Made by a program: the position numbers and the translations under genes. From Rhodamnia argentea (Eukaryota; Streptophyta; Magnoliopsida; Myrtales; Myrtaceae), in the NCBI RefSeq assembly GCF_020921035.1, contig NC_063158.1:23794178-23858177 (forward strand): a DNA stretch of 64,000 bases, written 5' to 3'. Shown in pieces: positions 18,708 through 49,743 of this stretch. The stretch's first letter is position 1. The number at the start of each line of letters is the position of its first letter. The notes below the pieces were generated by a model, which was not told the DNA's origin, made no database searches, and saw nothing but the letters and a program-made list of their open reading frames with translations.

Positions 18708-20670
18708 TGTAATATTTGGCCTTATTTTGACCAAGTCAACCAAGGTGGTGGGACCCACTAGTATTAAAAAAGAAAAAAAAAAGAAGCAGCTGGTGTCTCT
18801 TAGAGGAATCGGGAGTCTTCTATCACGCATAAGGAGAAGAAAAAGAGAACAGAAAGGGGAAAGGAAGAAAAGGAGAGAAAGAAGAGAAGAAAGAAGGAGA
18901 GAGGAGGAGAGGAAAAAAATCTCGTGTGCGCGCCACCCGCCCCGAGCGCCTCGCAGTATTCATTTCACTACGTGTCGCAACGCTAGGTAAGGGCTCGCAC
19001 CTCTTTCCCTCTCTATTGAAGTGATTTTTTTTGGATTTAGGACAAAATTCGGATCTTGAGGGAAACTGAGTTGCTGTGTCCTATCTCATGGGCGATTGGC
19101 CATGTTTTTGATTAGGAATGAAACTTTAGGATGTTATGAAGCCGTAGGATTCGACGGATCACGATTTCGTGTTACGGTTTGCCCGGACCGAGCAATTCAA
19201 ATCTGGTGCGCAGATTTACCGCGCGAACAGTGGACTTTGAGGGCTGTTTTCTTTAGTTTCTGTTTGTCGGTTGAGGTTGATCCTATTGAGACTTTTGTAG
19301 TACGTTGAACAAGCTTCGCGTGGACAGTAAGATGGCTTGAAACGGAGTTCGGTGGAGGAAGTTATGGCCTTAACGGTTTTGGCACGCAAGCTGTCCTTAG
19401 CAGACAGCATTAAATTTTCTGTTAGGGATAAGTTTCTGTTGGTGCGTAGTCGTCGTTTTGTCACTAAATAGGTATAGTTTAGCTAAGTCGTACGTTAGGA
19501 TGACTTGTTACTCGATTTGATCCATTTTTTCTATATATTTGATAGGATTTCGAACGTGTCGATCCGAGTAAGCTTTATATTTTGCTCCTGGCATTGTCGG
19601 GTGAGTGATACCATTTCTTCTTTGTATTTGTAAACTCATATTTCAAAAATGATAATACTAAGTATGTTATGATTGGAGAAATTAGCATTATTCGTTGCAT
19701 AAAACAGGATCGAACAATTCTTGTTGTTTTGTTCTAATTGATACGGTTTGTGAATAATTTGTGCTATTGGTTTTGAGTTGATTCTGCTATATTCGGGTGA
19801 TGAGGAGAATGTTGTTGTTTGATTTGGTGGTGCTCAAGATAGCCGTGAACCCGGCTGAAGGGTTTGTGAGTATGCGCATACTAGTTAGGATATCCTTGTG
19901 GGCCGAGCCACCGGCATTATAGGTGGAGACCTTGCCAAGGGGGAAATCTTGGTCGTCTTTTGTCACGAGCGTTATACGTGACCATGGTTAGAATCTTGAG
20001 CATGAGATTGGCAAATGATTTGATGAGATTGGCCAATGGATAGACCATTGGCATATGATTTGATGAGATTGGCCAATGGATAGACCATTGACATATGATT
20101 TGATGAGATTAGTCAATGGAAAGACCATTGATATATGCTTCGATGTTATTATCTGATACGGCTATCGTTGAAATGAATATATTATGCTAAGATAATATAT
20201 AACTCGTTTTCATTATAAAGGTTTGATATGTTTTGAGCTTGATGTAAATACCTTACATTTTGAATAGTAAGTGTGCATAGTGATTGTTCGATCCGCTTCG
20301 AAGAAATGTATTACTCATCGAGCCGTGTTAGCTCACTCCTTCCATTTCATTGGTTTTCGGGTTCGGCGAGTCGCCAGCAAGACGTGAGAATAACGTTAAT
20401 CGAAGGATTTTTGGGTAGGGGAATTTGTGCTACGAAGTGTACGTAAGTGTGTTGAGCTTTGGAGATAGCTCTTTTGATGGATGTATGTATAGGTTTGTTT
20501 GAGGAATTTAGAAAGCTCTATCACTGGAACCGCACAATCTTTATATCATATATATGTGAATGTATATATGTTGATATCAGGTTGAGTAGTGTTATATTTT
20601 GAGGCTGCATCCTTTATGACAAAGGATGGCCGTGTCATTGCCCTGTTCTTGTAGGAACTGGGATGTGACA
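18708..20670 (+). mobile_element. Solo LTR (Ty3/gypsy-like) inside DUF4220 gene A
   Basis: Begins TGTAATATTT and ends GGGATGTGACA. It is flanked by ATTGC at 18703-18707 and 20671-20675, a perfect 5-bp target duplication. There is no gag-pol inside, so it is a solo LTR. The terminal 'gggatgtgaca' is typical of plant Ty3/gypsy LTR ends, which suggests plus-strand orientation. It contains a 40-bp unit repeated three times (20017-20137) and a long A/G-rich segment at 18770-18920. A diverged relative occupies about 22990-24310. Confidence 0.93.
20017..20137. repeat. 40-bp tandem repeat, three units, within the LTR
   Basis: 'gatttgatgagattggccaatggatagacc' recurs at 20017, 20057 and 20097 with a 40-bp period and slight divergence in the third unit. 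Confidence 0.9.
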
Positions 20671-20973
20671 ATTGCTGTGGACACAAGCGCGGAGCCGATC
20701 CTCGTGAAGGGAGATTCAAGCAAATCGGTCTTGTTCGATGGATGCATCTTGGCCAAATTACTGAGAGAGCGAACGCAAGAGAAGTGGGAGATCATGTCTA
20801 GAGTGTGGGTGGAGTTGTTGTCCTATGCAGCAAGTCATTGCAGAGCAGAGGCACACGCCCAGGTACTTAGTAAAGGTGGTGAGCTCGTGACTTTCGTTTG
20901 GCTCTTGATGGCTCAATTAGGCATTGGAGAGCAGTTCAGCCCTGCTTGTGCAAAGCTCACAGTGGGTGGTTAG

Positions 20974-25246: not shown

Positions 25247-27798
25247 CTATATGCATTGCAAAGTAGATCTACGTCTTCGGAACGACCATGTCAAGCCCAG
25301 GTCTACCATTTCCGACTCACTCTCTTGCTTCAGCCAGACTCCATTCTCATCGCAGGGGAAAAATGTGAGCCTGGGACATTTTGCCTTCTCCAAGTAAATC
25401 AGCCCTGGAAATGACTTTTGCACCTCACCCCAATCCCCCTTGAGTTCTTTCAAGGACCGCAGGCGCAGTACCTGCACTGTCCATGTTATGTCCTTGCCCT
25501 GTTCCACGCAGAGACTCTGGAGATTCCCTGCAGTGATATATAGCTTCTTTTCTGGCTTCAGTTTGCCTTCTGTCAGCCAAGCATTCAGTCTGGTCCCTGG
25601 GAAACACTGGAGTTCCAATTTCTGCAGGTTTGTCTTATTTTCTCCAGGATCTGGGGAAGCTGCCATAGCAGCCGTGCCGTCCGTTGAACTTGATTTTTTA
25701 CTGGGTTGTGGGACAAGTGCTGGCTGCCCTGCTGACTGGGCTGATGGTAGAGGTTGTGCCGGACTATCTTCTTGCTTTGCTCTATTTCCACATATGCATC
25801 TTCTAAAAGCCCTCTCATACCGTGAGTTTAATGAAGCCCTCTCTGGCCTAGAACTCTCACGAGTCTGTTCTCTCGACGGCATAAGTAGCCATATTATCGT
25901 CAGCTTCTCAAGAAGCTCAAAGCCCTGCAGAACCTGTACCTCTTTCTTCCTCGGGAAATCTTTCCTTGATGTATTGATGCTCAATTTTCTCAGATACTTC
26001 AATGCTGCCAAAGCTTCGAGCCCACAAGATTCTTTACTTGTTGACTGACCGATATAAAAGCCCTTGAGGACTCGGAGTTGTGAGAGCGAGGCAAGGCCTT
26101 CCGGAATGTGATCGAGCAGGTAACACTGGGAAATGTCCAAGTGAGTGAGGTTCTCGAGCGCGTCTATGTTCTTAGGGAGTGCCTCTAAATTGTGACAGGC
26201 TCTGAGGTCCAAAATCAGCAAGTTCTTGAGCTTGCATATGGAATCTGGGAGCTTGGTTATTCTTGAAATACCTTGAAGACTAACAAACTTGAGATATTTC
26301 ATATTCTCCAGCGCATCCAAAACTTTAGTGGTCTCTATTTCGATATGTTGGCCAGCCGAACCCTGCCAACCACCGAGGCGTAGCACATTGAGATTTTTCA
26401 GCTTTGAGAACCAGGCCTTTGTAAAATCTGGATGAGGATCATTGACATTGAACAGGGCATGCAGTTTCTCTTGATGTTGTCCACTTGTCAATTGCGTCCG
26501 AGACGATTCATTACCCCTGACCACCAAACAAGCTCGGTGAGACCAGCTGATATCGTTTGCAGGAACTCCCATCGTATCGAAGCTGAGGAATCTACATTCC
26601 TCTGCAATTCTTACAACCACAAGGCGAACCAAAGGATCCATCTTGAAGCCAACCAGTCTTCGATTCTCGAGGTCGGGTTCAATGAATCCTTCGGCTACTA
26701 TATTCCGCAAAATATTTGTAGTGTCGGAATGAGAGTTGACAAAGCCCTCTCCAATCCACCATTGCACCAGAACCCTCTTCTTCACAACAGCTTTTTCTGG
26801 AAATACAGAGAAACACAGCAAACATAACTTCGTCTTGCGTTCGAGATCGTGGAAGACCTCCAGAAATTCGTGGTAAAAATCAAGGAAAGCAGAGCTCCCC
26901 TGAATCTTCTTCTTCATGTCTTCACTTTGCTTCTCACCAACCAAATAGTATGCATCAAACGTCGTGCCCACAGTTCCACCAGCCTCACCGCCGTGGTATT
27001 CATCTTTTCCTTGTTGCACGGCATTAATATGGTGTCTCAGGTCTGTTAACATTGCCTCGAGTGAGGATACCTTGTCGCAAACTTCCTTGGTGGGAACAAC
27101 ATCGGCTTCACATTCAAACTTAGGTAAAATGTTCCACACGTTTTGGAGGTTACCAAGATGTTGCTCAAGAGCCTGGTGGGCACTGACATTTTGCTCCATG
27201 CCCTTCAGAATGATATGTGCACGTTCCGCGTACTTGATATCCCTTTCCAACTTCTTAAACCGATCATATAGTTCAAGCTTGTTTGGAATCGGATCAGCAG
27301 GACTAGGACTAGAGTTAGGTTGAGCCTGGTTGGTATTCCAACAGCAAAGAACTGTTAGGATTCGGCTCTCAATCACAACGAAGTAAAGTATAAAAAAAGA
27401 GAAAGGGAAATCGAGACACAAGGCTTTATCCTGATTCATTCTTAAACAAGAGCTACGTCTAATATAAAATTTCACTATAATTAGCACCTCACACATTTCA
27501 TTACATCCCTCAATCACAAGAAAAAGAGCAATAGCTATTCAGGGCCCCAACTCAAATTATCAATGAAAAAATATGGGCTCAAACTATAAAAGCTCTCTAG
27601 AACTCTGTGCTTTCCTATCGAGGGGAATATGAACCATACGCCAATAAGAACACCATTAGAGTCGGTAGCACTACGGGCATTCTTGGGTTCAGATTTGGGA
27701 ATGGAATTTCTTACCTTGGAAAGAAAGGATTCACGAAGCTTGTCGATTATCCTTTGCACGGGCAAGGGTGCGGCAGCAGAAGAAGATGATGATGGCAT
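25247..27798 (-). pseudogene. Winged-helix/LRR (P-loop-less NLR-like) gene A, interrupted
   Basis: Close paralogue of gene B (38044-40335). The expected start MPSSSSSAAAP is at 27798 and runs 50 residues. A 294-bp insertion (27353-27646) with a target duplication then shifts the frame and adds stops. The rest (from LCCWNTNQAQ to the stop at 25247) is one open frame. After the break come a helical N-terminal region, a winged-helix segment (FSVFPEKAVVKKRVLVQWW) and an MHD-like KMDPLVR. LRRs follow (LPDSICKLKNLLILDLRAC), then a Ser/Pro/Gln-rich linker and final LRR-like repeats. It has no P-loop or kinase-2 motif. It is related to RPP13-like-4/At5g45520-like proteins. It may be a pseudogene, or may survive if the insertion is spliced out or an internal ATG is used. 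Confidence 0.85.
27353..27646 (-). mobile_element. 294-bp LTR-like insertion within gene A
   Basis: Comparison with gene B shows that these bases are extra. They start tgttaggattcgg and are flanked by AGAAC (27348-27352 and 27647-27651; one more A also matches). A relative starts at 63148 (tgttaggattcagc..., 'ttcattcttaaac.ag..ctac.tcta', 'cacatttcattacat'). The size suits a solo LTR of a small or TRIM-like copia element. The end ccaata lacks the canonical CA, so the class is uncertain and the strand assignment is nominal. Confidence 0.8.
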
Positions 27799-28441
27799 GG
27801 CTACCGGAGAGAGTGAGGAAAATTTCTGTGATATATCATGAGATTGAAAGGTGCTATAAATGCAAACCTCGCGTTGCAACTGGCGATGCAAAAGGGAAAG
27901 GAGATAAAAGAAAGGCTAATATTGACTCTTAACGGTACCAAGGACGGGGTAACAGAGTCTTCCTCAACTCTTATGCAGTCAACTTTTTTAAGCTCTCGGT
28001 GAGCTGGAAATACAGCTCACTATGACAAACCCACGTGGCATTTAATATATTTTCTTTTATAAGTTCCCTCATTTTTATTCTCTCTTGAGGTCAACTGGAT
28101 CATGTCTTCCGAAAGCGTGGACGGGGTTACAAAGTCTTCCTCAACTCTTATGCAGTTTGAAAAGCTTTTCTGCATTGGGCCCTTGCCTTTACAATATGGG
28201 CACAAGCACTCCACACCTTCCGATTGTGACCCAATAAGCAATGACTTAGCGCGTTACGTGGTCATCCCAGATATGAGAAAGGACGAATGATGCCAAAAAT
28301 TTAGCAACGTGGTGTGCGCATCATCACTAAAGTGATCTTTTTTTCTTCGATTTGACACTTAAGTAATAAAAAAAATCAGCATCGAAATGAGTGCCGTATA
28401 CAAATACTAATAGTCCAAGTGTCCTTTTGTCCAATTTAAAT
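27799..28441 (-). promoter_or_regulatory. Upstream region of winged-helix/LRR gene A
   Basis: 27900-28310 matches 40440-40905 upstream of gene B ('gacaaacccacgtgg', 'acaaagtcttcctcaactctta', 'gagaaaggacgaatgatgcca'). It holds the same ggtcaact W-box (28089-28096). The phrase 'cttcctcaactcttatgcag' occurs twice (about 27960 and 28137). In contrast to gene B, no DUF4220 gene follows on the other side; a Mutator-like foldback element does. Confidence 0.6.
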
Positions 28442-29300
28442 GGGAAAATTTCAAAAAAGGGTCCCAAGTCCCTTCATTTTTTAAAATAAGGGCCTCAAGT
28501 GCCTTCATTATCTCAAACAAGGGCCTAAAGTGGGCATTATTTCAAATAATGGCCTGAAATAGCCATACCAGTCTCAAAAAAGGACTCGACTCATTATTGA
28601 TTAGAGGCATTTTCTTGTACTTTTCTTTTTTCTATTTTTCCAAAAAATAAAATAAAATAAAGCAAGAAAGAAGCATAGGCGGGAGGGGGTTGCTCTCTCG
28701 CTTGTGGCCACCGCCCCAACACTAATGGGGCGGCGGCGATAGCCAGCGGGGTTGTCGGTGCCTCGACGAGGGCCACCAACCCCGCCGACTAGAGCGAGGA
28801 CCTCATGGCCCGGGTTCGAGGGTGGGCCGTGGCCTCCACCGGACCTAGACACCTGTCGCCGACCCTCTGCGACGGTCGCCGAGGACCAACGGAGGCCGTG
28901 GCCCACCCCCAAACCCGGGCAAGGGTTGGCGACCTTGCCTAGATCTAGGGGAGGGTTGCGGCCCCTCTCTCGTCAATGGCAAGGGCTACCGGGCCCTCGC
29001 CTTTGGTTGGTAGTAACCACATGTGGGAGGGCAAGGTCTTGCCGCATGTGGCTTCCTCTTCTTTTTTTTTTTTTTTTTATACTTTTACATTTTTTTTAAT
29101 TTAGTTTAACTAAAAATTAAGTTAAAATTATATTTTGACGGAAATACCCTTGATTGGCCGAAATTTTTGGCTAGCCGGTGAGGTTAGACCCTTATTTGAG
29201 ACAAAGAAGGGATTGCAAGCCCTTATCCGAAATGATGACCACTTCAGGACCCTTATTTGAGAAAATGAAAGGATTTGGAGCCCTTATTTGAAATTTTCCC
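28442..29300. mobile_element. Mutator-type foldback element with 9-bp target duplication
   Basis: Inverted ends of about 40 bp begin gggaaaatttcaaa. AATTTAAAT is present at 28433-28441 and again at 29301-29309, a perfect 9-bp duplication as left by Mutator-like elements. The arms carry repeated 'aagggcctnaagtg' units. The core (28680-29060) is very GC-rich. The open frames in the core are compositional and there is no transposase, so it is non-autonomous. Confidence 0.9.
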
Positions 29301-29461
29301 AATTTAAATTGTCCCCTTAACCCATTTTTCATAGTGTTTTCTCCAAACTCATTCTTTTAACTGGAATTTTCAATTCAATAATTTCTTTTTTCGATGTTGA
29401 AGTTCAAATGTTAGTAATCCTACCCTCAACTTTAAAGTATGACCATGCAAATTTGTTATAT

Positions 29462-30340
29462 TTACAATTTTGGTCTAGTGACCTACCAACGAGAAAAGTA
29501 TCAAAAAAATCATAAACTTATTATATTTGTATAAATTTAGTCATCAATTTTTCAGTTGAATCAATTTAGTCCTAAATATTTTTGCTTAGGTACCAATTTA
29601 ATGCATTCAACCAATTTGATGAAAAATCATTGACATGGACGAAGGTCGTGCTACGTATGATTGGCACTGTCATGGATATTTTTAATACACACGCGCGCGC
29701 ACATACACACATATTTCTTCCCCTTTTCTTTTTGCCAATGGTAGGTCACTGTCCACAAGCCATGGTTGAGGGTCGGCCTCACTTAGGTGAGGGCAAGCGT
29801 CGGTGAGGGTCCCCTCATCATATTTGACGAGGCCCTCACCCAAGCTAGGGCGGCCTCTTCTAGCGTTGCTAGAGCGAGGGCAAGGGCAAGGGCAGATATT
29901 TTGTTGTCGAACCTCACCTAGGCTACGCTCGTAGGGCCTCACCCTCACCCAGGTAAAGCTTGACGAGGCTAGATCTGACGAGGGGGGCCTCGCCGATGTA
30001 ATCCAGCAAGACCGACACTCTCGTGTGGGCGACGAGGCAACATCACCTAGGTGATGCTAGCCCTCACCGACCACCGGCAAAAAGAAAAGGGGAAGAAAGA
30101 AAAAAGAAAAGAAAAAATAGAAAAATAAAGTTCGAAAATGTTTTAAAATGTCCATGTCAACACCGACCTTGCAACGTAAGACGGCTAGCAACCACATCAA
30201 TAATTTTCAGCCTAAATTAGCCTAGTGAACTAAATTGGTACCAAAGTGAAAGGTAAGACTAAATTGGTCCAATTGAAAGGTTTAGTCATTTACAACTGAA
30301 TTTGTATCAATGCAATAAGTTTAAAACTTTTCTTATATTT
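29462..30340. repeat. Family P foldback element with GC-rich core
   Basis: The left arm 'aatttagtcatcaatttttcagttgaatcaatttagtcc' and the right arm 'aaattggtccaattgaaaggtttagtcatttac' are inverted. The core (29740-30060) is rich in 'ctcaccnaggtgaggg' palindromes. A short CG/CA run lies at 29690-29708. No coding. Confidence 0.7.
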
Positions 30341-30419
30341 TTTTTCCATACCTAAAAGTGAGTACCAAGAAATAAAAAGGGAAAAAGATAAATCTGGATG
30401 CACCTTTATCCACCAGAAA

Positions 30420-31370
30420 TTTCAGTGCTCCCACTATTTTATAGCTGCTGATCCGTGCAAGCACATGCTAGTTATGGGGCGGCTAATAAATGCATTTTTA
30501 AAAAATCAATTTGGAAGATTAGTACTTGTTTAGAGAAATAGGAGAAGCTGACAATTTTGAATAGCAACCTTATGCATGCTTAATTTTTACCATAAGATTC
30601 TAGATGAGGTGCTTCGGTCTGTCTAACTGTCGGTTAACTTTACACATAATGGGGTTAATTAATGAAGCGAAAAAACAAAACATAATTAGCTGCTACTTGC
30701 TAGCATTACTAAAGTCATAAAAATAATGTAATGGTTTTGGAATATGTGCAGCAAAAGTCCTGTGTTTACATTTTAGAAAGACCTCCTGTCGTTATTAGTC
30801 TTTGTTTTGCTCAAGTCGAAGTCGCCTCTCGAGTCTTCCAAAGTTTTGTCTTAGAAAATAAGGAAAGTGACATTAATAGTCCCTGAAATTGGGCCCAATA
30901 TGCAATATTATTCCTGAATTTTTAACTTATTTCATGTGATCCCTAAACTTTAGACCAATGTGCAATATGACTCTTGAATTTTTAATTCGTTCGATGTGGT
31001 TTTTGAATTTTTAGTACATGTTCAGTTTAGTCCCTCAACTATATGAGAATGTCCCATATTTTCCCTGAATTTGAATTAACGAAATGATAATATTGGACAT
31101 TTTCGGATGGTTCGGGGACTCTATTGAACATTTACTAAAAGTTCAAGGACTATATCGGACAAATTAAAAGTTCAAAATAACATTGCACATTGGTTCAAAG
31201 ATCATAAATTATTTGTGTAATTATCCCTAGTAAATACAATGAGGTGATTTGTAAATGAATGTTCGAACGGAAGGATCACATTCATGCACCAGTTTAGGAG
31301 CCATTGTATCTCTAGGAAGCTATCCGCATGATCAGTAGGTAATTTTCCATGGGGAAAGTAGTTACGAATG
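30420..31370. repeat. Duplicated block Y copy 2
   Basis: Matches 13800-14340 in order (from 'gattagtacttgtttagagaaataggag' to 'gcatgatcagtaggtaattttccat'). It is split by the 30866-31232 foldback. It lies downstream of the NB-only gene. Confidence 0.65.
30866..31232. repeat. Foldback element of 'stress-phrase' type (family R)
   Basis: The left half has 'ccctgaaattgggcccaatatgcaatattattcctgaattttt' units. The right half has their reverse complements ('ggggactctattgaacat..aaaagttcaaggactatatcggac'). It interrupts block Y copy 2, so it is younger than the duplication. Confidence 0.7.
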
Positions 31371-31876
31371 AAGTCATCATATCTAGAGGTAAGCCAGGGC
31401 TTTGCGCAGACAATATGGCTCTCTCATGTGTTTAACATCGACCTTGCAATCTTCCATGTCAAAGAACTATAGGTTCTCTTAATATGATTGATGAGAACGC
31501 AGAGTAAAAACTCACTCTAGTCATGCCAAATTCTTGAAAGAGTAGAACCACAATAATTTTTAACTACTTATTGTTTGTTTTTTGTGGCCCAAGATAGACG
31601 GTTAGTCTTATAGTCATCCAAAGACTAATACATAATCAATTCTACCGTGACGTGTTATGCATGTTTACAAGATTAGGCATGCTGGATACAAAGCTATCAG
31701 CTATTGTTTCTTGCATAGCTACCGAATGAACCAGGCATGAAGAAAGATCCGGGTTCCAAAAATCAAATACCAGTTTCTGGAAACACAGATTTATTCAAAA
31801 TCAAAAGACAAGTCTTTCTCATGATACTAAATCAAACAGATGTGCGAATGAACAACCTTAGAAAGCCACACCATTC
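31371..31876. other. Spacer and 3' flank of NB-only gene
   Basis: No gene recognised; probably contains the 3' UTR of the minus-strand NB gene. Confidence 0.4.
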
Positions 31877-33241
31877 TTATTGCGGATTCGCACCTTTTGC
31901 AGATTCCTCTTGAAGTTGTTTGTTGACAATCTGACCCATCACCTTGGCAGCTAATGGAATGCCGGCACATTTCCGGCAGACCTCCGCTTTCAATTGCCCC
32001 TCATTTGGGAAATCGAATTGACTGAGACCTTCCTGAGCTGAACCTCGAAATACTGACCAGCAAACTTCATCGTATGAAGCTGGCATCATCCTATGCAGAT
32101 TCTCCTCGCCAACCATTCTCATAGCCAGTTCCTCGTTCCTGCTCGTGACGATGACCGCGCCTCCGTATCCTTTTGGGAATCCATAGGCAAGGCGGTCGCC
32201 CCAGTTTTTGCCGGGGACCAAGCAGGAACCCAGATCATAGTACCACTTTTCGTTCCCGCGGACACTATCCAAAATAATCAGGTACTTCTTCCCCCAAAGT
32301 TGCTGATGAAGCAAACTGACCATTCCATTCAGATCAGGAGCAGAAGATGGAGATTCAAGGGTTTCCTCTTCAACACCTAGATTTCTTAGAATACTCTTCA
32401 TTACTGCCTCCTTTTGGTTTTTATCCTCATCAGGCAGCCTCGGCATGTCCACCCAAATTCTAGGACAATACTTCAGATCTTTGCTAGACGGCAGCATCTT
32501 CTGAGTCGAATCTTCCTTGTCCTGTTTCTGGGTTCCTTCTTCCTCGTTGGGTTTGTTCACTTTTTCTTCCTTGTTCAGTTTCTGCGTCGATTCTTCCTTG
32601 TTCAGCTTCTGGGTCTCTTCCCCCTTGTGCGGTTTCTTGGTCTTTTCTTCCTTGTGCGGTTTCTGCACCATTTTTGCCGTGTCTGGATTTCGGGTCTCTT
32701 TCTTTGCTTGCTTCTTGAAAAACTGTCGGCATAGTGCCGTTTTACCAATCCCGCCACTCCCCACCACAGCAATCGCCCTGAATTGCTCAGCACTTTCTTT
32801 CTGGACTAAAGATTCCAGCAACGAAATTTCGTTCTCGTACTCTTTGAAATCCTGCTTATCTCGTTGGGACTGATCCGGAACGTGAAGGAAGCTGTTTTTG
32901 CCATCGGACGAGCTTCCTTCGGTGTCACCCTGGGGAATGCTATTACTCCCACCTGTGTTCTCCAATTCGTCCTTGATACTTTTGAGTTTATTCCCAATCA
33001 GAATATTGGCATAGATCTGATTCTTGGATACCGTCTGGCACTCGGTCAGGACATTGTTGAGGGAGTAAAGTTTGTCCCTGATTAATTTATCATCCGCTGT
33101 GGACGATTTCAGTTTCCCGTCGATCAGAGTCTCCAACTCTCCAAGGCGACCCGAGTAGGCGATCTTGGAGCCCTTCCCCACTTTACGCTCCAGCCCCTTG
33201 CTCAACTTCTCCAGTAAAAATTTCTCCATCTCCTGAGCCAT
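31877..33241 (-). CDS. NB-ARC-only protein (At5g45490-like), truncated after GLPL
   Basis: Intronless 454-residue frame from the ATG at 33241. Residues 1-150 are helical, possibly a diverged Rx-like N-terminus. The P-loop GSGGIGKT is at 161-168. An Arg/Lys/Glu/Gln-rich stretch of near-repeats (TQKLNKEE, TQKQDKED, KKPHKGEE) occupies about 190-250. RNBS-A-like RIWVDMP follows at 261-267, Walker B LIILD at 321-325 and RNBS-B GAVIVTSRNEE at 361-371. GLPL-type CAGIPLAAKV is at 425-434, and the protein stops 20 residues later. ARC2/winged-helix, MHD and LRR are absent. Those missing parts are what the neighbouring same-strand genes encode. It is likely cytoplasmic and nucleotide-binding. It is either a partner of an LRR protein in trans or a regulator. 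All core NB motifs are intact, so it is not a decayed NLR. Confidence 0.9.
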   Translation of the reverse strand: MAQEMEKFLLEKLSKGLERKVGKGSKIAYSGRLGELETLIDGKLKSSTADDKLIRDKLYSLNNVLTECQTVSKNQIYANILIGNKLKSIKDELENTGGSNSIPQGDTEGSSSDGKNSFLHVPDQSQRDKQDFKEYENEISLLESLVQKESAEQFRAIAVVGSGGIGKTALCRQFFKKQAKKETRNPDTAKMVQKPHKEEKTKKPHKGEETQKLNKEESTQKLNKEEKVNKPNEEEGTQKQDKEDSTQKMLPSSKDLKYCPRIWVDMPRLPDEDKNQKEAVMKSILRNLGVEEETLESPSSAPDLNGMVSLLHQQLWGKKYLIILDSVRGNEKWYYDLGSCLVPGKNWGDRLAYGFPKGYGGAVIVTSRNEELAMRMVGEENLHRMMPASYDEVCWSVFRGSAQEGLSQFDFPNEGQLKAEVCRKCAGIPLAAKVMGQIVNKQLQEESAKGANPQ

Positions 33242-33760
33242 GTCAACTCCTTAAAATGCTTCCCAAAAGATCTTCTTGACAAAGTAAACTCTTGGTCGGA
33301 CAATTGCAGGTAAACTTCTGTCAGACAAACGAAGGTTTCTTGCTCTGTTTCTGCGGATTTCTGCACAGAAGAGAGAGACCAAAGCTCACTCAACAAGACT
33401 TTTCGAGAAAAGTTGGATTTTGCACATGGAAAGCTTCCTTTTCTGAGATTTTCAATGTCCTTAACAGGAGGCGTGCCATAATGTACTCACATCACAATCA
33501 AAACGACACCATATTTTTGTATGTCTTCTGCCAGATTGGAAAAGGTGCATGAGCATGTGCATCTGCATATGTGTATAATTATAATTCTGCAAGATAAACA
33601 CATTAGATTTTTGTTTCATTGATCAAAATATTAGTCTTTTTGTTTTTTTTTTTGGCTAAAAAAATGTTGGCTTTTTTTTTGTTTAAAAGGTAAAAATTTT
33701 GAAATGACTCATGGGTTGACTTTGACTTGGGCAGCACCATTCTCAAGGTTATTAACACTA
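33242..33760 (-). promoter_or_regulatory. Upstream region of the NB-only gene with W-box motifs
   Basis: ttgactttgact at about 33717-33728 gives two adjacent TTGAC cores, and gtcaac abuts the start codon (33242-33247). Clustered W-boxes are known WRKY targets in plant defence promoters. Function here is inferred from sequence only. Confidence 0.45.
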
Positions 33761-35164
33761 TTCATTGCAGTATAGCGAAACCTAAATTGATAGGAAGTCC
33801 TTGTCATGCTGGCCACTGACAACGTCTTGTCTTCTTCTGCAATTGAAAATTCCATTGGAATCATAAGAAAAATGTGTTAAACTGCACAATTAACTTTTTA
33901 GATTTACAGGAGCGCATGAGCCAAAGTCTAATTTAGAGAGAGGAACTTGGGAGAAAGTAGTTGAGCCAAAATCCAATTTATAGGGAGAAATTTAGGAGAA
34001 AGTAGTTATACTTATTAGCATTTTGGCGTGCGTTTAGTTGCAGTAATGACTATTACATTACAAATTTATTACAAATTGACTGCCCATTACACCGTTTCCC
34101 TGTTTTTCTCTTTTTCTTTTTTTGTTAGTTACACTACCAATAGTAGATTATTAATGTATATTATCAATAATTTTATTCATATTACTCATTACAATTATTT
34201 TGACAAACCACATATGATATGATTAATAAATAAATTATTACATGAAAAATAAAAAAATTAATGAACTAGTAGTCATATTATCTTGCAAATACATAGTTAT
34301 ACACCATATTAAAAAATATCATAATCATCATAATACTATATGGTCACTATTAGGTATTATCTAAATTTTAATATATATATTGTGTTATTCATGATATAAT
34401 TTGTATCCTAATTGGTGATTATATTAGTCAATGCTAAAAATATTATGTATTATCTTTCCGATTCTACTATTAATTTTGTGCTAAATTACATATATTCTAA
34501 AATTTATGAGTAATTTAATATCAATCTTAAATTAATCATTAAAAAAGATGTAAAAATTGTATATATTAAACTGTAGCCTCTCGATAATTTATATGGGGTA
34601 TCACACTCATAACTAGCTACAAAAATGATTATTATAGTGTGATATTTTTATAACATAATCACACGTTCTTAACTTGATACATATCAGTTCTATATTTATT
34701 TGATAAATTAATAAAAACCAGCCGAACTTGCCAATAAAAAACACATTGAACTTCATGGATGAAAAGAATATTATCGTATCCAAGAAATTTCATGTAACGG
34801 GACAATTATTTTGCAATCACATTAAACAAAAAAAATATTGATTAAACACATTGAGGAATCATTAATTTACCATGTATCTTATGTAAAATTACGAAAACAA
34901 GACGCTGAAATAGAAAAAAAAAATTTCATAGCACAAAATTTTATTTTGGACTAATTTTTCCACCACTGATTTCATATTGTTCTTAGAGATTGCAATATAT
35001 ATATATTGCGATAGTAACTATAGACGGCATTTCACATGAAGTAAAACTTTTTATCTGTAAAAAGTACTGGCCTTGTTAATCTAACTTTCTAAACAAATAT
35101 AATAATGTAATTATTCTAACTGTAATCTGTTCTTGCTCGAAGCATGAGGCGGTTTTTAGTGTTT
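33761..35164. repeat. AT-rich spacer with block X copy 3 (first part)
   Basis: 34020-34700 is extremely AT-rich with no gene. 34730-35160 matches block X ('acacattgaacttcatggatgaaaagaatattatcgtatccaagaaattt', 'gtaactatagacggcatttcacatg', 'ttgctcgaagcatgagg'). Confidence 0.5.
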
Positions 35165-35172
35165 ATGACAAG

Positions 35173-35748
35173 TAGGGGTGTGCAACCGGACCGGGTTTAC
35201 CGGGAACCCGGATCGGCCCACTCGAAAAATAAGGTCGGGAATCGGTTCCTGCTCAAATCGGTCGGGGAATCGGTTCCAATTTTTGGGAACCGGTTGAAAT
35301 CAGTCCGGTTTCCGGTTCTAGGTGTAAACTCATCCGGACCGATTTTAGAATCGGTTTTTAGTTACTTTTTTAAAATTAAAATAAAAAAGAAAACCTAGTG
35401 TTCAGTCCAACATCGTTTGCCCTTTGGTTGCCTCACGACCCTCACCTCCTCTCAATCCTATGTTTATTCCCATCTCGTCGTATTATTTATTATTATATTT
35501 TAGATTGTTGCTTTTGGTGGATTGTAATTTTTATTATTTATTTCATCGATTCTTATATTATTTTGATTAAAAAAAAATAGGTTCTCGGATGGACCCTAGA
35601 ACCGGACCGAAAAATAGGATCGGTTCCAAAAACAGGTTCCAAGATAAATAGGATCAATTCTCGATTCTAAAAATTAAAAATCAATTATAACAGGATCAGT
35701 TTTAAGGTTTAGATTTAGATCCGGCTCACCCGACCATGCTCACCTCTA
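35173..35748. mobile_element. hAT-type MITE with 8-bp target duplication ATGACAAG
   Basis: Ends taggggtg and cacctcta are imperfect 8-base inverted repeats fitting the hAT TAGNG pattern. ATGACAAG occurs at 35165-35172 and 35749-35756, a perfect 8-bp duplication. Subterminal regions are rich in 'ccgg' and 'ggttcc' phrases in inverted order (aaccggaccggg.../...aaccggaccg). No transposase is present. It interrupts block X copy 3. Confidence 0.93.
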
Positions 35749-35756
35749 ATGACAAG

Positions 35757-37180
35757 CACCAGAAACTAAAGACTGTTCTTTAGTTGAAGGCGTATAATCC
35801 AAAACATGGACAGGCGAGGCGTTGGCTTTTGTATGATCGCAACTTGAACTTAAAACAAAAACAGTAGTGAGAAACACGAGAAAATATTCAGTGGCTTGGA
35901 ACCACATGTCATCAGCCTATGTGGTGTGACAAGCCTACTAAACTCCATTTAAAGGGCGACACGTGTCCTTGGACATGAAATAAAAAATTAGAATCGAAAC
36001 TCTCTTTTCTCTCTCCAGTAGGCTGAAAAAGACTGAGCACATGCAACAATAAATGCTGTCATTGATTGTCTTCTTCTCACTCTCTCTCTCTCAATGCTCT
36101 CTTTTCTCCATGGGTGGGCCGTGAGCCTACCCCAGTCAAAAGTGTTAAATTGTTGTCCCACGACGCTTGATAATGAATTTTATATATTCTTTATATTTAC
36201 ATAACTTTCTTTTATTTATTATCTTAAGTTTTTTAGTTAAATTTTCTAACATGGTATCATAGCGAGTGTTGTCATTTTGTGAATGTGTATCTAACTCTCA
36301 TTAATCAAATTTCACGTGCTCTTTTTATTCAACATCGTACCTAATTATAGTTTATCGTGAAAAAAAAAACAGCTCTCCATTTTCTAAAATGCTCGAATGT
36401 GCTATTTATTCATATTTAATATAACAAGTAACTTATTTGCATGACAAGCCACGCAAAAAAAAAAACAAACAAACAAACAAATAAATTCTGCATTCAAATA
36501 AATGAGACTTGTGGTCATGAAAACAGTCCGACAGATACTACTGACCCCTTCTTGATTAGGTATATATATAATAATAACAACTTGAACAAATAATGAATGC
36601 AAGCATTACCGGATACAACAAATTAGGGTACATTTTCTTTAATAAATTCCCAACTTGCACTATCTAAATTAATGTTTTTCTAATGCATATTGTCAATTTT
36701 TTTTTGGGGGGAAGGGGGGGAGGGGGGGAGGCGGCTGCAATGCATCTTTAAGATCGCATAAAGAGGTGGACTATATGAGGTGCCCGAAAGTTAGACCCTG
36801 ACACTGAACTAACCTGCTATTTTCAAAACAGATAATAAATGTTTTGATCTGTGATTAAAGCCTCGAAAAAACAAACCCCTTAAGATCGAAAAAAACTCGA
36901 GGCATCCACTTGCAAAGTGAGAGTTTATTCAAATGTGAAAATGAATATCACATTTAAATGACGAATCGAATTAGGTAACAAAGTAGCGTAATCATATGAG
37001 CGATTGAGGGCTATGATCAAACAAAGAACTGAGCCGATAAAACAAACAAATTTTGGTGATACTTTGTACGGTATCACCACCGATAATCGTATTGGAAGTT
37101 AGAAGATAAAAGATAACAATTTGATCTAAATGGAAGTTGAACAAAAACAAATTGGAAAAAAATCTCCACAAGATCAGCCC
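35757..37180. other. Spacer: end of block X, AT-rich sequence and a G-rich tract
   Basis: Block X continues to about 35830 ('aatccaaaacatggacaggcg', shared with 11450). No gene is recognised from there to 37180. Confidence 0.45.
36706..36735 (+). other. G-run tract, possible G-quadruplex
   Basis: GGGGGG, GGGGGGG and GGGGGGG runs separated by one or two A, then further GG, directly after a poly-T run. The spacing satisfies common quadruplex patterns. Confidence 0.6.
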
Positions 37181-37182
37181 AT

Positions 37183-37955
37183 GGATGCTTTGCTTGATGT
37201 GCTATCTCCGCACCGTTTCGCAGAAGATTTTACGTTATAATTACTGATTATGATTATTTTGATTTGTAACTCGATACTTCCCTTCAAAATAGTTAATGGG
37301 GAGATCGAATTTGGTTCATAAACTGACAATGGTTTTGATGAAAATATCAACAACTTGTGACGAAGAAAATACATAGCGAGGGACAATGGAGCCATGAACA
37401 ACCTTTTCTCGAACAAAATAATAATCAATATCAATATGCTTTTTCCAAGCATGAAAAGCCGGATTAACTGTGATTTGCAATGCCGACATGTTGTATGAGA
37501 GAAGTAATGAAGCTGGAGGTTTGTAGGTTCCAATGTCACGCGGTATGTATGAAATCCAAGTGAATTTAGCTGCCGTTGAAGCAAGAGCCTGTACTCAGCT
37601 TCAGTTATGGAGTTGACCAGATTGAGTTGTTTCTTGGCACACCATGAAAGGCAACATGAGCCGAGAAAATTACAATAACCAGAGATAGATAGAACGTCGG
37701 GCAAATTTGCATCCAGTTCAGTCTGCATCAGCAAAGGCCAATAAGTGGAGAGAACTATGAGACAAAAGGCGAAAGGCCAAGGTGTAAACTACCACGAACA
37801 TGTCTTAGAATACGTTTTACTATATGATACTGAGCAACAGTCGAGACATGCACATATTGGCAAACGATGTTGGCAGCAAGCAAACGAGAGATCCGGACGT
37901 GTGAGGGTAAGGTACTGAAGAGCAATTACAGTGATTCCAAAATGAGACAAATTAG
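37183..37955 (-). pseudogene. Decayed Ty1/copia pol fragment (RT end and RNase H)
   Basis: On the minus strand, 'GALQYLTLTRPDLSF'-like residues (near 37900) and, further on, SGYCNFLG..LSWCAKKQ..STEAEYR-like residues (near 37600-37700) match the end of copia reverse transcriptase and RNase H, in the right order. They lie in shifting frames with stops. It sits in the 3' flank of winged-helix/LRR gene B and is absent from the corresponding place beside gene A. Confidence 0.8.
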
Positions 37956-38043
37956 ATAAACGTACACAGAATGACCAGCATTTTTTGTGCAACATTGACA
38001 ACCAAGTCACAACGCAGGTAAAGATACACACTAGGAGTAAGAA

Positions 38044-40335
38044 CTACGTGCATTTTAATGGAGTCCTACGTCTTCTGAACGACCATGTCAAGCCCAGGTC
38101 CGCCATTTCCGACTCGCTCTCTTGCTTCAGCCAGACTCCATTCTCATCGCAGGGGAAAAATGAGAGCCTGGGACATTTTGCCTTCTCCAGGTAAACCAGC
38201 CCTGGGAATAACTTTTGCACCTCGCCCCAATCCCCCTTGAGATCTCTCAAGAACCGCAGGCGCAGCACCTGCACTGTCCATGTTATGTCCTTGCCCGGTT
38301 CCGCACGGAGGCTCTGGAGCTTTCCTCCGCTGATATATAGCTTCTTTTCCGGCTTCAGTTTGCCTTCCGTCAGCCAACCAGGTGGGGTGGTCTCTGGGAA
38401 ACACTGGAGTTCCAATTTCTGCAGGTTTGTCTTATTTTCTCCAGGATCTGGGGAAGCTCCCGTAGCAGCCGTGCCGTCCATTGAAGTTGATTTTTTACTG
38501 GGTTGTGGGACAAGCGCTGGCTGCCCTGCTGACTGAGGTGATGTCGGATGTTGTGCCGAACTATCTTCTTGCTTTGCACAATTTCCATCTATGAATGTCC
38601 TCTTAACAGCCCTTTCATACCGCGAGTTCAGTGAAGCCCTCTCTGGCCTAGAACTCTTGCCACTTTGTGTTTTTGATGGTTTCCCTCGCCATGTTATTTT
38701 CAGCTTCTCGAGATGCTCAAGACTCCGCAGAACTTTTACCTCTTCCGGCCTAGGGAAGTCTTCCCTGGCTGTATTGATGCTCAATTTTCTCAGCTCCTTC
38801 AATTTTCCCAAAGCTTCGAGGCCACAAGATTTTTTACTTGTTGACTGACCGATGAGAAAGCCCTTGAGGACTTGGAGTTGGGTGAGCGAGGCAAGGACTT
38901 CCGGAATGTGATCGAGCAGGTAACACTCAGAGACGTCGAAGTGGGTGAGGTTCTTGAGCGCGTCTATGTTCTTAGGGAGCGCCTCCAAATTGTGACAGGC
39001 TCTGAGATCCAAAACCAGCAAGTTCTTGAGCTTGCATATGGAATCTGGGAGCTTGGTTATTCTTGAAGTACCTTGAAGACTTAAAAACCTGAGATATTCC
39101 ATATTCTCCAGGGCATCCAAGAATTCGGTGTCCTCTATTTCGACATGTTGACCAGCCGAACCCTGCCAACCACCGAGGCATAGCACATTGAGATTTTTCA
39201 GCTTTGAGAACCACTCCTCTTTAAAATCTGGATAAGGATCATTGACATTGAACAGGGTATGCAGTTTCGCTTGATGCACTCCCCTTGTCAGTCGAGCCCG
39301 AGACGATTCTTTTCCCCTGACCACCAAACAAGCCCGGTGAGACCAGCTGATGTCGTCTGCAGGAACTCCCAAGGGATCGAAGCTGAGGAATCTACATTCC
39401 TCCGCAATTCTTACTACAACAAGGCGAACCAAAGGATCCATCTTGAAGCCAGCCAGTCTTCGATTCTCGAGGTCGGGTTCAATGAATCCTTTGGCTACTA
39501 TATTCCACAGAATACTCGTAGCATCGGAACGGTCGTCGACGAAGCCCTCGCCAATCCACCATTGCACCAGAATCCTCTTCTTCACAACAGCTTTTTCTGG
39601 AAATACAGAAAAACACAGCAAACATAACTTCGTCTTGGGTTCGAGATAATTGAAGACCTCCAGAAAATCTTCATAAAAATCAAGGAAAGCAGAGCTCCCC
39701 TGAATCTTCTTCTTCATGTCTTCACTTTGCTTCTCACCAACCAAATAGTATGCATCAAACGTTGTGCCCACAGTTCCACCACCGTCGCCGCCGTGGTATT
39801 CATCTTTTTTCTTTCGCAGAGCATTTTTAATCTGATGTCTCAGGTCTCTCAACATTTCCTCGAGTAAGGATACCTTGTCGTAAACTTCCTTGGTGGGAAT
39901 ATCATCTTCCCATTTATACTTAGGAAAACTGTTCCAATTCTTTCGGAGGTTACCGAAATGTTGCTCAGGAGTCTGGTAGGCACTGAAATTTTGCTCCAAG
40001 TCCTTCAGCTTGGTATGTGCACTTTTTTGCTCCAAGTCCTTCAGCTTGGTATATGCACATTCTGCGTACTTGATATCTCTTTCTAACTTCTTAAACCGAT
40101 CATATAGTTCAAGCTTGTTTGGAATCGGATCAGCAGGAACAGGAGTAGAGTTAGGTTGAGCCTGGTTGGCACTCCAACAGCAAAGAACACCATTGGAGTC
40201 GGTAGCACTATGGGTATTTTTGGGTACAGATTTAGGAAAGGAATTTTTCCCCTTGGAAAGAAAGGATTCAGAAAGTTTATCGATTATCCCCTTAACGGGC
40301 AAGGGAGCATCAGCAGAATGTGATGATGATGGCAT
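38044..40335 (-). CDS. Winged-helix/LRR (P-loop-less NLR-like) protein B
   Basis: Intact intronless frame. I chose the ATG at 40335 (MPSSSHSADAP, shared with gene A), giving 763 residues. There is a helical N-terminal region (70-215) with an 11-residue tandem duplication (TKLKDLEQ at 96-103 and 108-115) absent from gene A. A winged-helix segment spans about 228-285 (LCFSVFPEKAVVKKRILVQWW), with MHD-like KMDPLVR at 298-304. LRRs run from about 375 to 550, a Ser/Pro/Gln-rich linker from 551 to 635, and a second LRR-like block to about 725. No P-loop, kinase-2 or GLPL motif exists. The protein is therefore the C-terminal half of an NLR with a different N-terminus. It is head-to-head with DUF4220 gene B, about 1 kb apart. 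Family resemblance: RPP13-like-4/At5g45520-like (memory). Confidence 0.9.
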   Translation of the reverse strand: MPSSSHSADAPLPVKGIIDKLSESFLSKGKNSFPKSVPKNTHSATDSNGVLCCWSANQAQPNSTPVPADPIPNKLELYDRFKKLERDIKYAECAYTKLKDLEQKSAHTKLKDLEQNFSAYQTPEQHFGNLRKNWNSFPKYKWEDDIPTKEVYDKVSLLEEMLRDLRHQIKNALRKKKDEYHGGDGGGTVGTTFDAYYLVGEKQSEDMKKKIQGSSAFLDFYEDFLEVFNYLEPKTKLCLLCFSVFPEKAVVKKRILVQWWIGEGFVDDRSDATSILWNIVAKGFIEPDLENRRLAGFKMDPLVRLVVVRIAEECRFLSFDPLGVPADDISWSHRACLVVRGKESSRARLTRGVHQAKLHTLFNVNDPYPDFKEEWFSKLKNLNVLCLGGWQGSAGQHVEIEDTEFLDALENMEYLRFLSLQGTSRITKLPDSICKLKNLLVLDLRACHNLEALPKNIDALKNLTHFDVSECYLLDHIPEVLASLTQLQVLKGFLIGQSTSKKSCGLEALGKLKELRKLSINTAREDFPRPEEVKVLRSLEHLEKLKITWRGKPSKTQSGKSSRPERASLNSRYERAVKRTFIDGNCAKQEDSSAQHPTSPQSAGQPALVPQPSKKSTSMDGTAATGASPDPGENKTNLQKLELQCFPETTPPGWLTEGKLKPEKKLYISGGKLQSLRAEPGKDITWTVQVLRLRFLRDLKGDWGEVQKLFPGLVYLEKAKCPRLSFFPCDENGVWLKQESESEMADLGLTWSFRRRRTPLKCT

Positions 40336-41331: not shown

Positions 41332-43848
41332 ATGACAGCCGGTTCGATCCTAGAGAGCTTGAAGACGGTATGGGAGACGTGGAACATCCGTTGCCTGGTC
41401 ATTTTAAGCCTCTCATTGCAGGCATTCCTCATTCTTGTTGCACCTTTCAGGAAGAGAAGCGCTAACGCGTGTCTCATTTTCCTTGTCTGGTCGGCTTATT
41501 TGCTCGCCGATTGGGCAGCTGCATTTGCTGTCGGACATATTTCCAGCAGGCAAAGTGATGACAAGTCCGGTGGAGCTGCCAATGAAAATCTCGTAGCATT
41601 CTGGGCTCCATTTCTTCTGGTACATCTCGGAGGACCGGACACAATCACTGCCTTCGCTTTGGAAGATAATGCCCTCTGGCTCCGGCACATGCTTAACCTC
41701 GTCTTTCAAGTTTCAGCTGCCATTTATGTCTTCTATCAAACACTCCCCAAAAACAAGCTACTGATCCCGACAGTTCTGATGTTTGTTGCTGGAGTGGTGA
41801 AGTATGGAGAGAGGACACGAGCGCTGTATCTTGCCAGCTTGAAACGTTTCAAGAAGTCCATGCTCCAAAAGCCTGACCCAGGTCCTAACTATGCGAAGCT
41901 CATGGATGAATATTCTTCCTTGAAGGAAGCCATGCTTCCAGCTCACATAGAGATCATTCCGGAACCCAACAAAGAATCAAAAATGGCGATTTACGAGGCT
42001 GAAGATGGCAAACTTGATGAGGCTAGCGTGGTGAAGCACGGTTACCACTTCTTCGACATCTTCAAGGGTCTAATCGTCGACCTCATCTTCACCTTCCATG
42101 AGCGGCGAATGAGCCGGGAATTTTTCCACAAAAGAACCGCTGAAGATGCATTCAAGGTGATACAAGTCGAACTTAACTTCATCTACGAGGTCCTCTACAC
42201 GAAGGTGGTGGTGGTACATTCTAAGTTGGGCTATTTCTTCCGCTTCTTAGCCTCAGGTATTGTCATAGGAGCTCTTGTTCTGTTCACCCGCTTAAAGAAG
42301 AATGGATTCCACAGATTCGATGTTTGGGTGACCTATGGTTTGCTATATGGAGCCATTGGCCTTGATGCAATTGCTCTGTTCATGCTCCTATTCTCTGATT
42401 GGACTGTCGCTACCATCAAAAACTCTGTCATCCTTAATAAGCTCTTTGGTAAGAACTACGTTGCCTTCATCACTCGCATGAACAAACCAACCTTTACGAA
42501 GTGTCAGACACAGCCTGAGTATGAGGTGTTGGATACACCTGTATTGTTTCGTCGGTGGTCTGAAACCATCTACTCTTACAACCTTCTATCTGTTTGTCTT
42601 GATGAGCATCCGAAAAAAATCCAGAAGTCAAAGGGTTGCTGTGGCGATAATTGTGGAAAGATCTTTGGCATCTTGCTAGATATACTCGGGAAAATAGTGT
42701 TTTATCTCGGTCTACCTTTTTGGGCAATCCTCAGATTAATTGCATCATTCATCAGGGCCATCTCCCATGGTTTGCAGAAGATCTTTGATTGTTTCTCAAA
42801 TAAATTGGGTCTGACTGAAGTTCTTAATGGAAACGCCATTCTACACTATGTTTTCGATGGCCAATGCAGTAAGATCATTGGTAAACTCTGCATCTTTCCC
42901 TTGTATATCCTTGGTTTGGAGATATCTTGCCTCAACTGGATTGTTCGGGCACTGGATAATGATTTTTATTTAGTAGATACCGCCCATAGATTTTCCCGTG
43001 CCTTGATACTGACCTTCAATTTAGCTGCTGAAAGTGTTGGTCTAGACGAAGTTCTCGATTCGTTGAAATATGTGTCGAGGAACCCCTTTCCTAAGAAGTT
43101 GTGGGAGTTCATATTTGATGAGCTCCAAGTTAAGTCAATGTTTGCAGAGGACACGGAAATGGCGAAGGAGATATACGAGGCTAGAGGCCAGTGGGTTCTC
43201 CAGGATAGCGAGTGGAAAAAAGATTGCAAGGAGATAATGAAATATGTTGAAGGCGTTGAGTACGATCGGAGCATTCTTTTATGGCACGTTGCTACAGAAC
43301 TCTGCTACAACACAGAAAATGGCACGGAAGATTTGAATAGGGAGTTCAGCAAGATCCTGTCGGAATACATGTTGTACCTTCTGATCAAGCAACCCACAAT
43401 GATGTCCAATGTGGCCGGCATCGGCGAGATAAGATTCCGGGACACATGCGCCGAGGCAAAGAAGTTCTTCGAGAGGAGGGGAATCGAGAAAGAAAACAAA
43501 CTGAATGACGCCTGCGAGAAAATCCTCAACGTGATGACGAAGGCCAAGGGCGCCGAGCCGATCCACGTGAAGGGAGATAGGAGCAAATCGGTCTTGTTTG
43601 ACGGATGCATCTTGGCCAAAGAGTTGAGAGAGCGAGGGCAAGAAAAGTGGAAGATCATGTGTAGAGTATGGGCGGAGTTGTTGTCCTATGCAGCAAGTCA
43701 TTGCAGAGCAGAGACACATGCCCAAGTACTTAGTAAAGGAGGCGAGCTTGTGACTTTCGTTTGGCTCTTGATGGCTCATTTAGGCATTGGACAGCAGTTC
43801 CAAATCAATGAAGGCCATGCTAGAGCAAAGCTTAGTGTGGGTGGTTAG
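41332..43848 (+). CDS. DUF4220/DUF594 multi-pass membrane protein B
   Basis: Intact, intronless, 838 residues from the ATG at 41332 (the open frame starts nine codons earlier at a TTG). Several hydrophobic segments are visible at about 19-38, 45-65, 85-105, 112-130 and 135-150. Further ones lie in the middle (FFRFLASGIVIGALVLF; GLLYGAIGLDAIALFMLLF) and at LGLPFWAILRLIASF. The N-terminal half is the DUF4220 region (VHLGGPDTITAF, KYGERTRALYLASL). The C-terminal DUF594 region has FSKILSEYMLYLLI and GIGEIRFRDT, and the tail ends KLSVGG. The molecular function of the family is unknown. It is divergent from winged-helix/LRR gene B. In Arabidopsis, DUF594 genes lie among NB and LRR genes at At5g45440-45540 (memory). 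It is likely an integral membrane protein. Confidence 0.9.
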   Translation: MTAGSILESLKTVWETWNIRCLVILSLSLQAFLILVAPFRKRSANACLIFLVWSAYLLADWAAAFAVGHISSRQSDDKSGGAANENLVAFWAPFLLVHLGGPDTITAFALEDNALWLRHMLNLVFQVSAAIYVFYQTLPKNKLLIPTVLMFVAGVVKYGERTRALYLASLKRFKKSMLQKPDPGPNYAKLMDEYSSLKEAMLPAHIEIIPEPNKESKMAIYEAEDGKLDEASVVKHGYHFFDIFKGLIVDLIFTFHERRMSREFFHKRTAEDAFKVIQVELNFIYEVLYTKVVVVHSKLGYFFRFLASGIVIGALVLFTRLKKNGFHRFDVWVTYGLLYGAIGLDAIALFMLLFSDWTVATIKNSVILNKLFGKNYVAFITRMNKPTFTKCQTQPEYEVLDTPVLFRRWSETIYSYNLLSVCLDEHPKKIQKSKGCCGDNCGKIFGILLDILGKIVFYLGLPFWAILRLIASFIRAISHGLQKIFDCFSNKLGLTEVLNGNAILHYVFDGQCSKIIGKLCIFPLYILGLEISCLNWIVRALDNDFYLVDTAHRFSRALILTFNLAAESVGLDEVLDSLKYVSRNPFPKKLWEFIFDELQVKSMFAEDTEMAKEIYEARGQWVLQDSEWKKDCKEIMKYVEGVEYDRSILLWHVATELCYNTENGTEDLNREFSKILSEYMLYLLIKQPTMMSNVAGIGEIRFRDTCAEAKKFFERRGIEKENKLNDACEKILNVMTKAKGAEPIHVKGDRSKSVLFDGCILAKELRERGQEKWKIMCRVWAELLSYAASHCRAETHAQVLSKGGELVTFVWLLMAHLGIGQQFQINEGHARAKLSVGG

Positions 43849-49100: not shown

Positions 49101-49743
49101 GGACCTCTCGATAGTTAATGTCAACAACCTCTTGAAAGTTCTTGATCATGGACTTATCCTTGCACACGTGGATTGTTGCTCCGGAATCCAACCACCAACC
49201 CGATTGAACAGAAGTACCGTTGATTTCAGTAATCGTGGCCACAATACCATCAAGTTTCTCAGAAATTTCCAAGTTTGAAAACTTATGTGTAACCATGGCC
49301 ACATAGTTTTCTTCAACAGCATTGGTATCCGCCTTCACAATTGGCATTGGTGTATTCTTCTCCTTGGAAGTATTGTTCTTGCGATGCCTACAGTCCCTTG
49401 CAAAATGGCCCACTTTGCCGCAAACGAAACAGCCCCCTTTCTTTTTCTTTTGTGCCTTCTTAAAATTCTGCTCTCTCTTGCGTTTCAAATTTGGGTTAAT
49501 TTTGGACTGAAATCCATCACCCGTCGGGACATTCACTTTAGTTTCGTATAGTCCAGAATTTTCACGCAAGCGTGACTCTTCTTCAATGCGAAGATGTTTC
49601 TGGAGTTGAACCAAAGTTATGTCCTCTGTCCCGTGCATAAGCCTTTTCCCATAGTCCTTCCAACTTGAAGGCAATTTGGCAATGATTGCTCCAACTTGAA
49701 ATGCTTCTGGTATGTCAATTTTGAGAGCACGAATTTTGTTCAC
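46183..49743 (-). CDS. Copia gag C-terminus and pol polyprotein
   Basis: A single 1,186-codon frame. CCHC zinc knuckle [14 protein letters not shown] at 105-118; aspartic protease LDSGAT at 185-190; pre-integrase LWHSRLAHL near 314-322. Integrase has HSD (D373), SDRGGEY (D437) and AERKN (E473), consistent with D,D-35-E. Reverse transcriptase carries YVDDM; RNase H has YTDASW and later [13 protein letters not shown]. The frame itself shows no internal stop, so pol is intact. It lacks a proper start because the gag beginning is in another frame. Confidence 0.95.

Follow-up and report, generated by a model that had tools for sequence, protein, structure and literature searches.

Canonical nucleotide-binding leucine-rich repeat (NLR) receptors of the coiled-coil (CC) class, or CNLs, combine an NB-ARC domain, its nucleotide-binding (NB) motifs, a winged helix (WH) with the MHD motif and leucine-rich repeats (LRRs) on one polypeptide. 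Linked NLR pairs, such as RPS4/RRS1 and RGA4/RGA5, consist of two genes that each encode a largely complete NLR. For potato Rx, PMC3510248 describes CC, NB-ARC and LRR parts that complement one another as separate polypeptides. Here we analyse a 64,000-nucleotide window of the Rhodamnia argentea genome (C9:23794178-23858177; assembly of 346.7 Mb), an NLR neighbourhood of this plant, in which three minus-strand genes appear to divide the parts of a CNL between two kinds of protein: gene B encodes a CC-NB protein, and genes A and C encode WH-LRR proteins. Like the members of linked NLR pairs (e.g., RXL/Pm5e), these probable immune genes are neighbours that may act together; unlike in such pairs, each half has what the other lacks. 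The closest solved structure, ZAR1 (RPP13-like protein 4), is one polypeptide, whereas the Rhodamnia halves come from two genes, and the division of Rx is a laboratory construct, whereas that in Rhodamnia is natural.

Gene B (31877-33241, minus strand) is one open frame of 454 residues that matches the Pfam NB-ARC domain (73.9 bits, E 1.5e-20) and has no LRR match. Its motifs occur in the order P-loop (GSGGIGKT, 32738-32761), RNBS-A-like (PRIWVDM, 32444-32464), Walker B (32267-32290), RNBS-B (AVIVTSR, 32138-32158) and GIPL, a GLPL-type motif (AGIPLAAK, 31943-31966) that opens the last predicted helix (429-450). The domain match and motif positions confirm the motif content that a first-pass annotation had read from the DNA. 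That annotation also had the protein stop 20 residues after GLPL; it does end close by, but 24 residues past GIPL. Its description of the protein as NB-ARC-only was mistaken. In the structure model (mean pLDDT 75.3), residues 2-94 (32960-33238) form four predicted helices (H2-17, H30-45, H51-70, H76-94) resembling a CC domain, and the family profile reaches residue 9 of ZAR1; on this modelled and aligned N-terminus, gene B is a CC-NB gene. With a CC-like N-terminus and an NB domain but no LRR, it falls within the described class of CN proteins, or truncated NLRs. Between the P-loop helix and RNBS-A lies a Lys/Glu-rich insert (32480-32656), modelled with low confidence (residues 196-254), that overlaps a tandem repeat of 27/81-nt units detected by a repeat scan (32499-32666). 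The Corymbia protein P0123 has a shorter insert. We considered a ZAR1-type channel residue at position 11 of the first helix, where E or D occurs in 30 of 38 alignable rows; this helix is strongly charged, and the residue was not used as evidence.

Genes A (25247-27798) and C (38044-40335) flank gene B on the same strand. Both encode a helical N-terminus followed by a winged helix and LRRs; neither has a Pfam NB-ARC match, and no P-loop pattern occurs in their proteins (P0003, P0002). The LRR matches exceed the Pfam cut-off, whereas those to the winged helix fall under the curated value (22.1 bits for A and 20.0 for C, versus 27); the winged helix is clear where the WH-LRR family profile aligns to ZAR1. 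Gene C is a single open reading frame (ORF) of 763 residues. The lead-in helices and winged helix of its model (residues 201-313, 39397-39735) lie within the part that superposes on ZAR1, and Pfam matches, model and superposition together place the LRR region at residues ~334-738 (38122-39336). At the MHD-equivalent site, located by motif position and family alignment, gene C reads KMDPLVR (39424-39444), with H replaced by D and D by P; the same motif occurs in gene A (26624-26644). Pfam, the family profile and the motif positions uphold the earlier account of both genes, apart from its treatment of gene A as one ORF: an intron of 389 nt (27714-27326) follows from the public model of this gene, P0003. 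The corresponding stretch of gene C is uninterrupted. There, gene A has approximately 290 nt extra between two copies of GTTCTT, which by eye looks like an insertion. Over 700 codons, the two genes share 80% identity and have a dN/dS of 0.51 (NG86) or 0.76 (YN00), i.e., a constraint of only moderate degree.

The breakpoints of the two halves were compared on solved structures, among which both family profiles picked ZAR1 by a wide margin (PDB 6j5t/6j5u/6j6i). The CC-NB profile aligns to ZAR1 residues 9-368 and the WH-LRR profile to three stretches between 385 and 847, such that only about 16 residues at the junction (approximately 369-384) are covered by neither. Aligned in this way, the breakpoints are complementary family-wide and no accident of the locus, which supports what had been proposed from the three genes themselves. 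The division falls inside ARC1. ZAR1 is the best relative of both halves by sequence profile among the few CNLs with a solved structure; when the gene B model was compared in VIA-align, ZAR1 tied with NRC4, Sr35 and NRC3. In the profile alignment, ZAR1 carries the MHD-type motif KIHDMVRD, in contrast to the WH-LRR family, which lacks the MHD aspartate.

Homology searches indicate that CC-NB and WH-LRR proteins are separate, widespread families of flowering plants and not local wrecks. The gene C search yielded 398 proteins at E ≤ 0.001, gene C included. We examined the 120 of these that were listed, among which are at least two monocots (Phoenix and Ensete). PF00931 (NB-ARC) was found in none of the 120; a bare P-loop pattern occurs in five, either N-terminal or in or after the LRRs, again without an NB-ARC match. 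In a scan for proteins that might fuse the two halves, none of four long WH-LRR proteins (1079-1276 residues) contained NB-ARC. The gene B search gave 55 proteins at the same threshold, including gene B and a full-length CNL, P0175 (39 bits, versus 126 for the weakest CC-NB row); the others are NB-ARC proteins listed without LRR. A profile search with an alignment of the family (A1) returned 26 rows compared with 55 for the single-sequence search, so an absence of CC-NB proteins from monocots is not established. The numbers of homologues of C and B exclude chance as the source of the observed anatomy, and the anatomy of the two halves is real.

Conservation was assessed in two alignments. One holds 69 hand-chosen WH-LRR proteins from the 120; the other holds gene B and 48 CC-NB relatives, those left after P0125, P0129, P0134, P0137 and P0147 were dropped from a total of 53. 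Of the 49 CC-NB rows, 48 retain the P-loop lysine (the remaining row being a gap) and 48 the RNBS-B arginine, and all 49 have the GLPL proline; in 45 the chain ends no more than 60 residues from the GLPL glycine. Across both gene B searches, 58 of 64 CC-NB proteins match the P-loop pattern and six do not. At the MHD site of the WH-LRR proteins, H occurs in 35/69 and P stands at the D position in 57/69. Compared with a canonical CNL, then, none of A, B and C has NB-ARC and LRRs on one polypeptide, the nucleotide-binding motifs are found in gene B and its relatives only, and the winged helix of the WH-LRR family lacks an MHD motif.

The two families also tend to be linked. We scored, from the rows listed (120 of the 398 for WH-LRR), nine species with both families on chromosome-scale contigs, taking contig sizes identical to the base as a shared contig and picking rows by eye. 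Both families share a contig in seven of the nine (Rhodamnia, Tripterygium, Dovyalis, Rubroshorea, Liquidambar, Corylus and Alnus), whereas the other two, Vaccinium darrowii and Prunus speciosa, have them on different contigs. With Rhodamnia excluded, six of eight are linked (P = 9.2e-6 with the chromosome numbers of the species, or 1.8e-4 if each chance is set at 1/7). Eucalyptus grandis, whose WH-LRR row comes from a contig of 8,230 bp, was not scored. As is expected of a linked pair, linkage thus extends to several species; adjacency itself was seen only in Rhodamnia and, from locus tags, in Rubroshorea leprosula, where SLE2022_013900 and SLE2022_013910 are apparent neighbours in a series numbered by tens. 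The Liquidambar tags are 487 apart. A Brassica oleracea table in PMC7795555 lists Bo2g127270 and Bo2g127290 (At5g45490) with Bo2g127320 (At5g45510).

Within Rhodamnia, profiles were used to scan 294 kb comprising the window, 130 kb to its left and 100 kb to its right. The genes form a cluster at C9:23698714-23838022. It holds three CC-NB genes, one of which breaks off before GLPL, together with four WH-LRR genes and a single CC-less NB-LRR gene. DUF4220, searched with a profile made from the two such genes in the window, is represented by four genes and a fragment. No CC-NB, WH-LRR or DUF4220 match was found outside this span in the 294 kb, nor did the family profiles detect a CC-NB or WH-LRR copy in the window beyond A, B and C. 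Genome-wide, CC-NB matches comprise the three places in the cluster, an open gene at C3:30.20 Mb (P0159) and a broken copy at C3:30.64 Mb; among weaker matches (≤77 bits), the best belong to long open frames as large as a CNL. WH-LRR matches comprise the four cluster places, three at C9:4.44 Mb and a fragment on C8, while weak matches at C3:30.20 Mb (17.0 and 14.9 bits) fall inside an NB-LRR gene. The two families therefore cluster together, yet are not always neighbours.

Other genes of the window lie on both strands. An NB-ARC-LRR gene of 1424 residues without a CC (2400-6674, plus strand) is a possible alternative partner of the CC-NB protein. Its relative on C3 matches only from residue 61, so that this family seems to begin at the NB domain, without a CC. 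On the plus strand, domain matches identify a DUF4220 gene (16516-18990) and a DUF4220-DUF594 gene (41332-43848); these two and a DUF4220 fragment (20683-20970) alternate with the genes for the NLR halves. In the C9 cluster, no CC-NB gene is more than 15 kb from a DUF4220 gene, and the same holds for the CC-NB gene at C3:30.20 Mb. Arabidopsis At5g45490 has DUF594 genes as neighbours as well. The minus strand further carries a Copia-type retrotransposon ORF of 1151 residues (46183-49638) with zinc-knuckle, integrase and reverse transcriptase matches and, toward the right end of the window, a small RING-finger gene (53222-53836) and an EF-hand gene (58047-58769), both assigned by domain match.

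The system is probably an immune one, and a split receptor, i.e., a CNL-type immune switch divided between two polypeptides that assemble in trans, is a plausible reading of the alignments, which we advance tentatively. Under such a scheme, the CC, the nucleotide-binding domain and the first ARC1 helix would come from the gene B family, and the A/C family would contribute what follows, beginning with the helices that lead into the winged helix and ending with the LRR. A single ZAR1-like CNL would be the ancestor of both, either split by gene fission or duplicated, with each copy then losing the part that the other kept. In the assembled switch, the winged helix of A or C may dock on the nucleotide-binding domain of B and keep it inactive; when the LRR, or a guardee bound to it, senses a pathogen, B would be released to signal through its CC.

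Several observations weigh against this split receptor. The strongest structural one is that the MHD aspartate is missing from all 69 aligned WH-LRR proteins, and any ADP lock in trans must hence differ from the canonical NLR lock. The second WH-LRR cluster (C9:4439196-4452662; two open genes and a third interrupted by stops) has no CC-NB match near it, and in the 40 kb examined around P0159 there is no WH-LRR gene. CC-NB genes adjoin CC-less NLR and DUF4220 genes as well: P0159 is flanked by a DUF4220 gene and by the relative of the 2400-6674 gene. In the literature, the complementation in trans described for potato Rx stands beside maize Rp1-D21, whose LRR and CC-NB-ARC parts fail to restore cell death in trans (PMC4342346). 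It is somewhat unlikely, but in keeping with the unaccompanied WH-LRR genes at C9:4.44 Mb, the reverse situation on C3 and the uniform loss of the MHD aspartate, that each family is a truncated NLR derivative in its own right and functions without the other. The WH-LRR proteins would then serve, independently of any NB domain, as adaptors, decoys or scaffolds, and the CC-NB proteins, like other truncated NLRs of the CN and TN types, as small helpers or signalling components; the linkage would be the product of old tandem duplication in an NLR-rich region. Truncated NLRs active without LRRs are indeed a recognised class (PMC8306327). Independent function leaves unexplained, however, why 45 of 49 CC-NB proteins stop near the start of the other family and why linkage recurs in species of several plant orders.

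The neighbourhood of P0159, with DUF4220 and CC-less NB-LRR neighbours and no WH-LRR gene in the 40 kb scanned, is consistent with a different partnership, in which CC-NB proteins pair with the CC-less NB-LRR gene of their clusters (here 2400-6674) or lend their CC-NB part to several LRR proteins, those of the WH-LRR family included, with DUF4220 possibly joining the module. The apparent start of the 2400-6674 family at the NB domain and the proximity of DUF4220 to the CC-NB genes of the cluster and of C3:30.20 Mb also favour this, as does the matching of Brassica rapa Bra013372 and Bra013373 to At4g19050 and At4g19060 in PMC4008172. We nevertheless consider it unlikely, given that the CC-less protein has its own NB domain and no need of that of B; moreover, 20 kb of sequence surrounding the broken copy at C3:30.64 Mb contained no DUF4220 match. 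That A, B and C are decaying, functionless NLR fragments is very improbable. Broken or truncated copies of both families do exist (CC-NB at C9:23716052-23716726 and C3:30642962-30643521; WH-LRR at C9:4443360-4444634), but the frames of A, B and C are open, their motifs are conserved in relatives across many plant families and A and C remain under constraint, albeit only moderate. A broader possibility, though a somewhat unlikely one, is that the CC-NB proteins are an old family of executors, controlled in trans by LRR sensors that lack a CC or NB domain of their own. These sensors would be mainly WH-LRR proteins and perhaps also the CC-less NB-LRR proteins of the same clusters, and DUF4220 proteins would be further members of the module.

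Members of both families are known singly from the literature, as CN or NB-only proteins in NLR surveys or as a possible misannotation. The Arabidopsis proteins At5g45440, At5g45490 and At4g19060, of the CN or NB-only class, appear in database titles of gene B relatives. An earlier study cited in PMC6312357 assigned them to CNL Group C, while that paper's own tree places them with Group A. PMC5093994 describes At5g45510, a divergent NL, as having LRRs but no NB-ARC and suggests for that reason that it is incorrectly annotated. Going by this description, At5g45510 probably belongs to the WH-LRR family; its gene number is close to that of At5g45490. No description of a natural split or bipartite NLR was found in the literature searched, whose scope did not extend to most subscription journals.

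If the halves assemble, plants would long have possessed a resistosome switch made of two proteins, and two orphan, badly named families, the CN proteins and the 'RPP13-like protein 4' proteins without NB-ARC, would be one system. The hinge between NB domain and winged helix would then be able to work between molecules, a natural design that separates recognition from signalling. Were the CC-NB family instead a shared executor, one executor could serve several sensors, with receptor and executor as separate gene products. NLR-finding pipelines keyed to NB-ARC overlook the WH-LRR half. Even without assembly, the common breakpoint and the linkage of the two families call for another explanation.
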